Source: Acanthamoeba sp. SK_2022b
Taxonomy: Eukaryota; Discosea; Longamoebia; Acanthamoebidae
Direction: 5' to 3'
DNA: 64,000 nucleotides
Assembly: GCA_027943245.1 (NCBI GenBank)
Contig: JANDJZ010000040.1
Span: forward strand, 1-64,000
Program-made: the position numbers and the translations under genes
The notes under the pieces: model-generated
The model's database searches: none
Seen by the model: the letters and a program-made list of their open reading frames with translations, nothing else
Told to the model about the DNA's origin: nothing
Shown: positions 24,146 to 30,261 of the stretch, piece after piece
Layout of the letters: the number at the start of each line of letters is the position of its first letter
Numbering within the stretch: the stretch's first letter is position 1

Positions 24146-24631
24146 CTACAACAACAACGTCCTTGTCGTCATGAGCACCTGAAGGAGAAGCACGAGGAGA
24201 ACCAGAATCCTATCCTCATTGCTCCTTGGCTTGTGGTGTAGGTGGTGATGGATGAGTGTACCCAGTGTGCTCCAGAACTGAGTGGGATCTTGAAAGGGCA
24301 TGCCTTCCTGTAGGGTTATCAATGCACAGGCGTAGCCTTTGTTCTGAAGCTGTTTGCAGAGCTGAAGCATGTGTGTCATCTTACTGGCTCCCCATGGGCT
24401 GTGCAGCATGATGTAGCTGTGATGTGTCACGTTGTGTGGATTTGTGAGCAGCTGGAACAGGGGGCTGCTACTCTCCTTGGTGTCAATGAAGAAGTAGCTG
24501 GCTTCCTGCTTGGGGGGTGATGGCGCTGTTAACAGTCCATTGCCACTGGACATACATCTTGTGCACTCCAAGGTGCACCACCTGTCATGCATCATTCCAT
24601 CATCACCATCAGCAACAATGGACATACACAA
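24146..24631 (-). pseudogene. ORF with degenerate P-loop-like region
   Basis: One open minus-strand frame, 161 codons. The stretch SYIMLHSPWGASKMTHMLQL resembles a Walker A strand-loop-helix (hydrophobic strand, then G-x-G-K-T/S region) in which only W-G-A-S-K-M remains. LQNKGYACALITLQEG resembles the following strand of AAA-like ATPases. The DNA is CpG-poor and rich in TG/CA. It is probably a mutated remnant of a multicopy ATPase-like family; assignment is tentative. Confidence 0.3.
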
Positions 24632-25401
24632 GTTGAATGTTGTGTGGAGTTGTGTGTGGTGGCCTTCTTCTTCCCTTTGTTCTTGCTCCTCTGCTGCTGC
24701 AGAAGAAGTGTGTTAAGTCTGAATTCAGTAATTAAATTAATTGGGGCTGGGTCAGGGTATGTACTGACATGGTGGGTCTGGCCTAGGGCTGTTCATTTGG
24801 TTCAGGCCAAACCGGTTCAGGATCTGAAACTGGTTCTGAGGAATGCCAAAAATATCTTTTTTTAACTGCCAGCAACTGAACTCTGGCTTTTGTTGGCCCT
24901 GTGGGTGGCCACAGCAAATGCGGTTTCTGATCTGTGCTATACCATCACAAGCCAGTTTATCCAACTCAGCCCTTTTGTGCAAAAGGTGCCACTCTCAATC
25001 AAACATTTTTGTGCCAATTATTTCCTTCTACTGCCACATGTGTTGTGTTCAGGTCCTATGGGAAAATGCACTTAGGATGGCAATGTAGGTATGTGAGCAA
25101 CCCCACAGCAAGGATGCAGACAATGTACCAGATGCATTCATGACAGTGCAGCATTATGAGGTGAAGGAGCTACACCATCTGCATTGGATAGCCCCATTAC
25201 AATTACCTTAAGCTGATTGCACAAAAAATTCACACTTAAAAAGAGGGGCCTCAACTCACAACCAAAGCAAACTTGTACCGCTGAGCCGCCGTAGGCTGAA
25301 TATTAGGTTGGGGCTCACGCAACCCAATTTTGACGTCATTTTATTTCCTGAAACAAGCAAAACCGAACCCGGTTTAGCAAGAGAAAAGGCAAGCAAGGTC
25401 T
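24632..25401. other. CpG-depleted region without a recognisable gene
   Basis: From 24601 to 25260 I count two CG dinucleotides in 660 bases. Short ORFs only, none convincing. Confidence 0.6.
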
Positions 25402-26666
25402 CTAAGCATCACGGGAAGGGTGGGCAAAGCGTCGAAGATGATCAGGATTGCGCCTGTAACACTGCGCGCCGTACCGGCAGGCCGGTCGTTCGCCGTTCTC
25501 GTCATAGTCCGAGCCCTCGCTCACCTGCGATACCGCGTGGGTAAGCCATGTCCAGCAAACCAGGCTGCATGCAAGAAGCGTACGTGTTCCTCATCGTCGC
25601 TGTTGTCATCGGCGTTCTTCTTCCACTCGGCCGCATCGAAGCGATCCTGGTCCATGGGGTCTACCTCCTCTTCCTCCTCTTCCTCGCTGCCTCCATCCGC
25701 ATTCAAGACCCCCGCCTCCGCCACCAGTTCCAGATACTCACCCATCCGTTCCTTGGCCACCCGGGCTGCGTGCCTGCTGCCGGCCCTCCTCCGGGGGACG
25801 CCTCCACCAGTTCCGCCTCGTCGCGGTGCCGTCCCCCGACCCCTGCCTCGACTTGCCGACCCCCTATGCCCACCAGTCGATGACGTAGAGGACGAGGAAG
25901 ATGACGAGGTAGGGCGAAGCCGTTTTCTCTCGGGTTCGTTCTCCTCTTCCCCATCGCTTCCCCTGACCTTTTCTAGCTGAGTGGTCAGCTGGCCGACCTG
26001 GGCGGTCTCGACGTCGCGCTGCGCGGCGGCCATCAGCGCTCTCGCCTGTGCGATATCGGCCTCGGCCTCCTCCTTTTGTTCACGCTCCATTCGCTCTCTC
26101 TCCCTCTCTGCGAGCGTCTCGCACGAGGCGTCAAAGGGCAGCTTCCGCTTCTTGGAGGGATCTACCACTCTCTCCGTATGCACCACACGAGGTCCTGTCG
26201 TGTGCTCCGCGTTCGGAGCTGTGGTGTCTGCTCCCTCGCTGCCCGGCGGTGGCAAGCTGCCGCCGGCGCTGCGGCCGTCCTCAGAGAGTTCGAGCACGAG
26301 TGGATGGAGATCGGCGAGCATGGTGACCACGTCGCCCACCCGCAGGATGGCCTCCTCGCCACGCGACAATAGCTCCCCTTCACCAGCCTGGCCGGCCCTC
26401 CGTACATAAACGGGGTTCACTCCTTCACTGCCACCAAGGTTAACGAGTCAGACGGTGCCGTAGATGGCGAAACTGGGGTTATTATGATGGTGCTTGTAGG
26501 GGGAGGCGTACACGGTGACGGCAAGGGCGGGGCCACGCAGACTGATTTGTAGCTGTCGGCGGCTGATGCGCTTGTCTGTTACGCCCAGCACGCCCCGCCC
26601 GAGGTAGGTGACCTCGCCCTCCGTCAGTTCCACCGCCTCCCCACTTTCGCAGTGGCGCAGCCGCAT
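25402..26666 (-). CDS. APLF-like DNA-repair factor: FHA domain plus PBZ zinc finger
   Basis: Three exons. Exon 1 (ATG 26664-26666) and the start of exon 2 form a PNKP/APTX/APLF-type FHA domain: YLGRGVLGVTDKRISRRQLQI (cf. [21 protein letters not shown]), then after a phase-consistent intron EGVNPVYVRR, and VGDVVTMLADLHPLVLEL. The middle is low complexity (Arg/Gly, Glu and Ser runs, a long helical EREREREQKEEAEAD region). A donor after DDEEH joins GTG at 25512 to VSEGSDYDENGERPACRYGAQCYRRNPDH..RFAHP. This last part is a PBZ poly(ADP-ribose)-binding finger (C-x5-C-x6-H-x4/5-H). Stop at 25402-25404. FHA would bind phosphorylated XRCC1/XRCC4-like partners and PBZ poly(ADP-ribose), so a role in strand-break repair is inferred. 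Confidence 0.82.
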
Positions 26667-26911
26667 CACTGTGGCTAGTAGTTGAAGTTGCTCGGTCGGT
26701 TGTTGACCAGTTGGCGCTAACGGCTCCTACAATAATCGTTTTTCTTTTTTAATATATATTATTTTTTCTTAATAAGAACAAACAAAACTTGGGTGTTGCC
26801 CTTTCTTGCAGCACTTGAAGAAAGGCAGCACGAGGAGAGCTCAAAGGGGTTGTGTGGGGAACGCCAGATTCTGGGCGGCGGCGCTGGTGCCACGGCCATA
26901 TGGTGTTGTCC

Positions 26912-28474
26912 TCACACCTCCGAACCACCTTCTGGACGAAAAAGCCGAGAGGTAAGCCATCAGCAGCCATAGGCACAACCCACCAGAGGCCGACTGATTC
27001 GGACCCTACCTTTGGAGCGACCCTTGCGTTTGACGGAGCTATTAGCACCAGACCGAAAGGTGAGGCAGTCGCGAAGCACTTGCATCGTGCGGCTGCTGTT
27101 CTTGTACGATTCCTCGTCCAGCGTGTCCAGCTCGGCTATCGCGTCGTCGAAAGCTTCCTTGGCCAGTGCGCACGCTCTGTCGTCATCGTTGTTGTTTGTT
27201 GTGCATTCACAAACAGATCAGCGCGTGCGCGTGCACAGCAGTGCGAGCCAACGAGGCGTACTTTTCGGGCTGCTTGAGTATTTCGTACTGAAAGACAGAG
27301 AAGTTGAGGGCGAGGCTGAGGCGGATGGGGTGGGCTGGCGGCAGCTCCAAGATCGAGATGTCCGAGGCCTGGGTGAAGTACTTGAGCGCGTTCTGAGCCG
27401 CGGCCTTGCGCTCGCCTTCGGGACCAAACTCGGCCAGGTACCGGTAGTAGTCGCCCTTCCTGTGCGCGCCGAGAGGTCAATCAGAAGACTTCAACCAGCG
27501 GGGGCAAGGAAGGACAGATCAAGAAAAATGAACGGGCACGAGAAGAGGAGGAGTACATCTTGAAGAAAAAGACTCGAGCCTCGGCAGAGACGGTGTGGGG
27601 GATCACGTAGGCGTCGAGCACCGCCAGCAGGTCGCGACAGACGAGACATATTTCCGACTCGAGGGCGTTGCGGTACTTGGCGATGTGGCCCACGAAAGAG
27701 TCGCTGCGCTGGATGCTGCGCTTCTCCTTCTCCTCGCAGGTCACGATCATTTGCCATGACTCGCGCTTGTTCGCTATCTGGTGTTTATAGGCTCGTGACA
27801 GAAGGTTGCGCTCCTCGACCGTCAGCTCTACGCCCAGCATCGCCACGTTCTTGATAGCCGTCACCATCTCTGTGGCAAAACAGCAGCGCAGCAGACCCAG
27901 AAAAGCACATCAGTGGTCCACCATGAGTTGACTAGGTGTGCAGAGCAAGTTTATTGGTGGTTTGTGTGTTTGGGGAGGGGGAGGGGGTAATACCTGAGTA
28001 TCGCTTGGCCTGCTCAGCAATCTGAGCAAAGAACACCTCCTGGTGCCGTCGAATGTGTACAATAAGGCGAGGATCGGTGGCGATTACGTTCCAAGTTTTA
28101 CAAACGAGGCGAAGCCTTTGCCAGTCGTCCCACCATCGCTGGTTGGCGTTCCTTTTGGGGCCTCGCTTCTTGCTCTTTTGCCTCTGCCCACCTCCCTCTC
28201 CTCGTGATGGCCATGAACTCGATCTCGATTTGCAATGCAGAGGGGGTAGCAGATGAAGAGAGGGCAAGAAACTTCGTCGTGGCGAGACCAGCGCAGCAGT
28301 TGAAGAAGTGGAGGGAAACACCACAGCTGGTGCAGAGGAGAAAGAAGGCGATAGAGAGATGGGAATGAAGTGTGGACCATGGCCACCATTTGTTGAGAAT
28401 TTAAGGAAGGGATTAACTTCGGGTATGAGGAATTTCATGATGTGCGCTATGAGCTCTGTTGGCAGCTGTTCCAT
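26912..28474 (-). CDS. F-box / 14-3-3 fusion protein
   Basis: Exon 1 (28474-27994) starts [18 protein letters not shown], an F-box N-terminus. After an in-frame Ser/Pro/Lys-rich insert of about 90 residues it returns to F-box consensus, [20 protein letters not shown], and runs directly into 14-3-3 helix 1, [13 protein letters not shown]. The exon ends in phase 1, and the acceptor at 27870 gives [10 protein letters not shown], so the junction reads RYSEMV as in 14-3-3 proteins. The rest of the fold follows: [69 protein letters not shown]. Groove residues equivalent to K49, R56, R127, Y128 and N173 are present. Near the C-terminus the usual N-L-T-x-W is C-L-T-F-R, followed by a basic KRKGRSK tail; the proposed stop is 26912-26914. 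No Met lies between F-box and 14-3-3. About 400 residues. Confidence 0.85.
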
Positions 28475-28702
28475 TATCGAGGAGGGGACCACCGTTGGCC
28501 CCTCGCTTCGTTCTACTTGGTTTATTGTTCTCTCTTATGCTGATTCGCCTGTCTCTCTCGTGTTGTTGCCTCCTCCGTTGTCGTACTTGTGTTTTCTTCT
28601 TGGCCGTTGAGGTGATGCAGCGCGCCCCCTTAACAACAAGAGAATAACAGGAAAAATAAAGGAAAAGGTGAGAGCGGAAGCTCGATTACGAGGTCGAGAG
28701 CC

Positions 28703-30261
28703 ATGATTGGGACTGCATCGACGTCCACTTCGATCGCCGCGCCGGGGAACTATGTGGAACACACACGAGCATGCTTTGCCAAAGCCACAACTAGAGAGCT
28801 AGTTGGCCATCAAAAGGAGGTGCCATTCGCAGCGACCTCGTCATAAATTTCACTTTTAATTTAGGATTTGCTTCCTCAAAGGTGCACTCTGTGGCGTGGA
28901 ACTGCACGGGAAGGAAACTGGCCTCTGGTTCGGTCGATCAGACTGCGCGCGTGTGGACTATGGCCAGCCCTGTGCGCACCTCCCTCTCCTTGCTTGCACA
29001 CGAGCCACAATGTCCCCCGTGGGGGGTGCTTCACGCAAATTTCTCACCCTGGGCCTTGGGCAGGGAGGTGAGCACATGGTGCTGAAGGGGCACACCAACA
29101 GTGTGCATCAGCTGTGCTGGGATCCTACGCACCCCGAATATCTGGCCACAGCGTCAGCCGACAGGACCGTCCGCATATGGGACACGCGGAGTAAGTCTCT
29201 TCTTGCACCGCTCACTGCAAGGCCGGTTTGCTCACTTGCGCCCTCTCTTCTGCGTGAAAATGTTACAGGCGCCAAGTCAACTCACACACTCAAAACCAGC
29301 GGCGCAAACATCAACATCGCGTGGAGTCCCGATGGCGGACACATTGCCGTGGGCAATAAGGTGTGCCTCCTATCGGCTTAAGACACGCCATTACCGCAGC
29401 TTACTGAGCGATTTCGTTGGTGAACGCTTGGCCGAACAGCTCGACCACTTGACGATCATCGACACGCGCAAGTTCGAGACCATAAAGATCCTCAAGTTTG
29501 GCTTCGAGGTGCCGCCCCCGCTGGCAGCGATCCGATCCTGTGCGCGTGTGGCGAAGCTGATCTTCGTCACGAACGATGTGTACAGGTGAACGAAATAGCA
29601 TGGAGCAAGGACCTCAACTTCCTGTTCCTCACCACAGGGCGTGGAGGAGTGGAGGTTATGAGTTGGCCCTCGTTGGAAAGAACCTGCACGCTGCACGCTC
29701 ACACGGCCAACTGCTACTGCGTGAAATTCTCGCCATCGGGAGAGTGCGTCGCTTCCGCCGCGTTTCTGTGTTTTGTGTGGTCACCCTTGCCAACTGCGCT
29801 CCTTGTTAGGTACTTTGCGGTGGGCAGCGCCGATGCGCTGGTGAGCCTGTGGGACGTGGAGGACCTCGCCTGCTTGCGAACCTTTGGCCGCCTTCAGTTT
29901 CCTATTCGCACGGTCAGCTTTACGCATGATAGTAAGATGATTGCTTCTGCCTCTGAAGATCTGTGCATCGACGTGGTACGCCATTACTCTAGCCTAATGT
30001 CGATTATTGACCTTGCTCCTCGTCCCCATTGAGACGCGTCAGGACTGGCTGGCCATACTGGCAATAGCTCACTTTGACTACCACCATCTACAGGCGCTAG
30101 TGGAGACGGGCGAGCTGGTGTCACAGATCAAGTGCAATGCGGCCATCAACACGATGGCCTGGCATCCTCAGAACCACTGGCTGGCCTTTGCTGAAGCTGA
30201 GAAGGACAAGTATGCCAAGGACTCCGGCAACATCACCCTCTATCAGCTCCCCTCTCAGTGA
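28703..30261 (+). CDS. THOC3: THO complex subunit 3 (THOC3/TEX1), WD40 protein
   Basis: WD40 beta-propeller of the THO/TREX mRNA-export complex. ATG 28703 (MIGTASTSTS). Exons encode successive blades: VHSVAWNCTGRKLASGSVDQTARVW, LKGHTNSVHQLCWDP...ATASADRTVRIWD, INIAWSPDGGHIAVGNK, FEVNEIAWSKDLNFLFLTTG, AHTANCYCVKFSPSGE, YFAVGSADALVSLWDVEDL, PIRTVSFTHDSKMIASASED and INTMAWHPQNHWLAFA. These track human THOC3 along the whole length. Stop at 30259-30261. Introns fall between blades. It is divergently transcribed from the F-box/14-3-3 gene across 228 bases. THOC1 is also in this window, on the same strand. Confidence 0.93.

Follow-up and report, generated by a model that had tools for sequence, protein, structure and literature searches.

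14-3-3 proteins shield, move or hold phosphorylated clients, and an F-box serves to dock its protein onto the ubiquitination machinery. In beta-TrCP and Fbw7, which belong to SCF ligases, the F-box is followed by a WD40 propeller that reads phosphodegrons. According to one report, phosphorylated Fbxo4 provides a docking site for 14-3-3 epsilon, by which Fbxo4 homodimerization and activation are facilitated (PMC9101129), and another says that a maize 14-3-3 gene model, Zm14-3-3_n, possesses a predicted F-box (PMC4388342). In the 64,000-nucleotide window of the Acanthamoeba sp. SK_2022b genome analyzed here (contig JANDJZ010000040.1, positions 1 to 64,000), a single gene seems to combine an F-box with a 14-3-3 domain that is nearly complete and has no start codon of its own.

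The fusion resembles beta-TrCP and Fbw7 in having an F-box and then a phospho-reading domain, but its reader is a 14-3-3 instead of a WD40 propeller. It resembles the Fbxo4 system in that an F-box and a 14-3-3 may act together in dimerization, but Fbxo4 and 14-3-3 epsilon are described as two proteins joined by phosphorylation (PMC9101129), whereas the fusion is one polypeptide. Zm14-3-3_n has in common with it the report of a 14-3-3 and an F-box in one gene model, which comes from a plant and is a putative fusion (PMC4388342). Canonical 14-3-3 proteins (epsilon, and the paralogs on contigs C904, C551 and C538 of the same genome) share the whole fold and the phosphate-binding core with the fusion, which differs from them in the absence of its own start methionine, the F-box in front, a changed groove end, a basic tail and two introns that the three paralogs lack. 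Both domain families are known, and their combination is the unusual part. The original prediction had held that no protein with this architecture is described: the maize model (PMC4388342) gives the pairing a precedent in print, and it was the only F-box plus 14-3-3 precedent found in a literature search made partly by title and abstract and mostly among papers outside subscription, the same search having found nothing on this architecture in Acanthamoeba. Another paper from that search mentions the two domains as separate items, and PMC8619664 proved to have no bearing on the fusion.

From its domain content, we put the chance that the fusion is a phosphorylation-dependent SCF substrate receptor at roughly 0.5. 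The F-box would bind SKP1, the 14-3-3 part would dimerize and grip phospho-Ser/Thr clients, and the protein, probably as a dimer, would serve SCF as a receptor that depends on phosphorylation and whose range of clients is altered. A 279-nucleotide stretch, if sometimes kept, would interrupt its F-box. If true, the permanent attachment of a 14-3-3 to a ubiquitin-ligase adaptor would convert the holding of a client into a destruction signal and would make the fusion a natural way to build a phospho-selective degrader, and an F-box-rich amoeba genome would be seen attaching the F-box to a new binding domain.

Gene layout and the 14-3-3 domain

On the minus strand, from 28474 to 26912, five exons, all with GT-AG borders, give a single frame that ends with TGA and has 392 amino acids when the F-box is left unspliced. 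The features of the gene are:

27994..28474, minus strand: exon 1 according to the first reading (F-box N half, 93-codon stretch, F-box C half, linker and helix A)
28418..28474, minus strand: F-box N half, 19 residues
28139..28417, minus strand: probable phase-0 intron or in-frame insert, GTTAAT...AACCAG, 279 nt (93 codons)
27994..28138, minus strand: F-box C half (with its 18-residue segment), short linker and 14-3-3 helix A as far as RYS
27870..27993, minus strand: intron, GTATTA...CACAG, 124 nt
27557..27869, minus strand: exon 2, 14-3-3, with the counterparts of K49 and R56
27262..27459, minus strand: exon 3, 14-3-3, with the counterparts of R127, Y128, N173 and E180
27010..27176, minus strand: exon 4, end of the 14-3-3 (altered groove end C-L-T-F-R) and most of the basic tail
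26912..26931, minus strand: exon 5, final residues and TGA stop

The fusion of an F-box to a 14-3-3 in one gene, as first predicted, is supported at the sequence level by the one frame, the GT-AG exons and the Pfam matches. The start and end of the F-box and helix 1 of the 14-3-3 had been placed in a single exon and in one frame; the one frame holds, but the F-box halves lie 93 codons apart, so that they probably do not share an exon in the strict sense. In the translation, the only methionines upstream of EMV are M1 and that within HIMKFL, which bears out the claim that none lies between the F-box and helix A; since there is none from HIMKFL to EMV, any protein that begins at an ATG and includes helix A has to start in the F-box. 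The gap between the end of the F-box and the start of 14-3-3 homology is about 7 residues, a 14-residue segment of the fusion aligns with the native N-termini of the three 14-3-3 paralogs, and the junction of 27994 with 27869 recreates RYS-EMV as had been proposed.

The predicted 14-3-3 fold does follow, with a match to Pfam PF00244 of 260.6 bits (cut-off 33.2 bits, E 1.5e-77) at residues 150-370, covering positions 2-220 of the 223 in the profile; in the spliced protein of 299 amino acids, the 14-3-3 match has an E value of 6.9e-78. Among solved structures the top match is 14-3-3 epsilon (PDB 8dgm, E 5.2e-77), and identity to the canonical paralogs on C904, C551 and C538 is 53, 52 and 43%, respectively. 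Residue positions (K49, R56, R127, Y128, N173, E180, N224 and W228) are given in 14-3-3 zeta numbering, K49, R56, R127 and Y128 being the phosphate-binding residues and N224 and W228 the usual, not strictly defining, peptide contacts. The counterparts of K49, R56, R127, Y128, N173 and E180 are invariant with all three paralogs, the phosphate-binding ones being K96, R103, R178 and Y179 in the 299-residue form. The counterparts of N224 and W228, kept as N and W in 3 of 3 paralogs, are C275 and R279, a change that might weaken or redirect the binding of clients. The alignment also contains the two C-terminal peculiarities noted originally, a groove end reading C-L-T-F-R (N-L-T-L-W in the paralogs) and a basic tail, KRKGRSK, where the paralog tails are acidic. 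An intron in KM/KGDY is common to the fusion and the genes on C904 and C538, and those after RYS and in K/ACALAK are present in the fusion and in none of the three paralogs. A very divergent 14-3-3-like locus (C563:6000-12000), outside the paralog alignment, has a long dinucleotide repeat within its open frame and may be a gene or a pseudogene.

Helix A of 14-3-3 proteins carries dimer contacts, and among the dimerization residues of the fusion the counterparts of R18 and E89 are kept and that of K85 is A (L in C904). Retention of helix A and of the R18 and E89 counterparts beside an altered groove end would suit a 14-3-3 part that is chiefly a dimerization or regulatory module and not a substrate reader, pairing two F-boxes or letting phospho-partners switch the ligase, as a built-in form of the partnership between Fbxo4 and 14-3-3 epsilon, which offers a published precedent (PMC9101129). 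The phosphate-binding core is nevertheless kept and Pfam recognized no other substrate-binding domain in the protein, and we consider such a role unlikely.

The F-box and the 279-nucleotide stretch inside it

The Pfam cut-offs are 20.5 bits for the F-box family (PF00646) and 24.3 bits for the F-box-like family (PF12937). The unspliced protein of 392 amino acids has 21.4 bits for PF00646, just above the cut-off, and 19.3 bits for PF12937, below it, and unspliced exon 1 alone is above both (24.1 and 26.2 bits, respectively). With 28417-28139 removed, the F-box-like match of the resulting 299-residue protein rises from 19.3 to 35.1 bits (E 1.1e-8), and PF00646 gains little (from 21.4 to 24.2 bits for the whole protein). 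The similarity to an F-box on which the original prediction depended is thus significant for both families in the spliced protein and for PF00646 in the unspliced one, with PF12937 falling short in the latter. An uninterrupted F-box depends on removal of this stretch, which is in our judgement probably an intron, although it may instead be an in-frame insert or an intron that is sometimes retained.

The training set for a codon-usage score consisted of nine segments from profilins and 14-3-3 paralogs of the same genome. The 93-codon stretch scores -1.10, which 52% of 2000 mononucleotide shuffles equal or exceed, and so has no codon-usage signal; its GC3 is 0.47, whereas the 14-3-3 exons have 0.79, the F-box N half 0.63 and the C half 0.56. 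The N half (17 codons) is indistinguishable from the stretch with a score of -1.11, and the C half (44 codons) scores -0.63, which 2.5% of its own shuffles reach and which falls between the extremes of -2.09 and -0.30 obtained when the four introns of the gene are read in all three frames. The 14-3-3 exons, at +0.02, match the usage of the training genes. A stop-free frame as long as 93 codons occurs in 10-12% of simulated sequences, making the open frame of the stretch a weak hint of coding.

The donor of the candidate intron is GTT, and all 8 introns read in 14-3-3 genes start with GTA; its last 30 bases include 10 pyrimidines, compared with 18, 18, 10 and 20 in the four accepted introns. 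Twenty in-frame splice pairs were listed, of which two (28417/28139 and 28417/28166) were given Pfam scores, and since the alternative acceptor 28166 is close behind, with a near-equal 32.5 bits for exon 1 alone, the acceptor at 28139 remains a candidate. AlphaFold2 modelled unspliced exon 1 alone with a mean pLDDT of 40.8 (very low confidence), and comparison of the F-box part with PDB sequences gave two weak matches (E 0.023 and 0.67). A search of the genome for kin of this F-box returned nothing but itself (seven candidates scored), and a search of NCBIfam gave a chance match only. Scans for relatives among viral and prokaryotic contigs, which are poor ground for a eukaryotic gene and may omit records of the window's own or very near genomes, gave 2 and 28 stretches, respectively, that fit the pattern, none of them confirmed.

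Alternatively, the F-box may fail to engage SKP1, for example if the 93 codons are coding and interrupt it, and the protein would then be either a scaffold that works independently of SCF or a 14-3-3 copy in decay. The stretch is indeed open in frame, its candidate splice sites are weak, codon usage in the F-box halves is poor and the groove end is changed; against this, the stretch lacks a codon-usage signal in addition to having a GC3 of 0.47, its removal lifts the F-box-like match, and all five exons are open, those of the 14-3-3 agreeing in codon usage with the training set. We consider a scaffold or a decaying copy unlikely. Less probable again is an elaboration of the SCF receptor in which the stop-free 279-nucleotide intron is a regulated exitron: the protein would be a single-chain receptor whose 14-3-3 groove captures phospho-clients, splicing out of the intron would yield a working ligase receptor, and its retention would yield a 14-3-3 that binds clients and cannot dock on SKP1.

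Genome setting, second contig and neighbourhood

In the genome searched (44.9 Mb in 1129 contigs), profiles gave 3 matches to the SKP1 family, all above the cut-off, and 32 exon-level matches to the cullin family, 27 of them above the cut-off. A profilin encoded in this genome differs at 6 of 125 residues from the Acanthamoeba profilin II of PDB entry 1f2k, in keeping with an Acanthamoeba host. Sending phosphorylated clients to ubiquitination is plausible given the presence of these families, an F-box that is significant once the 279 nucleotides are removed, and the retained phosphate-binding residues. The SCF receptor reading is further favored by the one frame with no methionine between the domains, the 35.1-bit F-box, the same gene on contig C362, the crowded neighbours and the precedent of Fbxo4 and 14-3-3 epsilon. 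Against it stand the changed N224 and W228 positions, the poor codon adaptation of the F-box, the small gain in PF00646, the GTT donor, the pyrimidine-poor intron end, the rival acceptor at 28166, the weak PDB matches and the lack of F-box kin in the genome.

The search for F-box-like sequences gave at least 151 matches at E values no higher than 10 after scoring of 150 among the 421 first-look candidates, and also gave below-cut-off matches in 3 of 14 control genomes. On this count the Acanthamoeba genome is F-box-rich.

Contig C362 bears the same gene, with no differences across 26905-29390 (2486 bases). Over 25095-29390 there are 32 differing positions, all in 25095-26904, and in the comparison with 24420-29390 of the window, colinearity is broken below approximately 25095, where C362 has extra DNA. 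C362 may therefore represent a second copy or haplotype, whether an allele, a duplicate or an assembly effect. An assembly chimera was thought unlikely because the same arrangement occurs on C362, an argument that holds unless the contigs share reads; the identity of 2486 bases means that the two are maybe not independent.

Upstream, a THOC3-like WD40 gene on the plus strand (28873-29381 onward) is head-to-head with the fusion, with a short common intergenic region, its first matching codon lying about 0.4 kb from the fusion; downstream, a frame on the minus strand (26448-26726) starts within 0.3 kb. Two separate genes have little room between such close neighbours. The frame of exon 1 continues into the first accepted intron as far as a stop at 27932, and retention of that intron would yield an F-box-only product (intron retention being, according to one report, the predominant differential splicing event in programmed cell death of A. 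castellanii; PMC12404691), but the pairing of such a short protein with a separate 14-3-3 transcript is very unlikely, because the separate 14-3-3 would have no ATG ahead of helix A and a start at its first in-frame methionine (EMV) would drop helix A. The downstream frame has a weak FHA match (E 0.0016) of 18.8 bits, less than the Pfam cut-off of 23.1, and perhaps encodes another phospho-reading domain adjoining the fusion gene.
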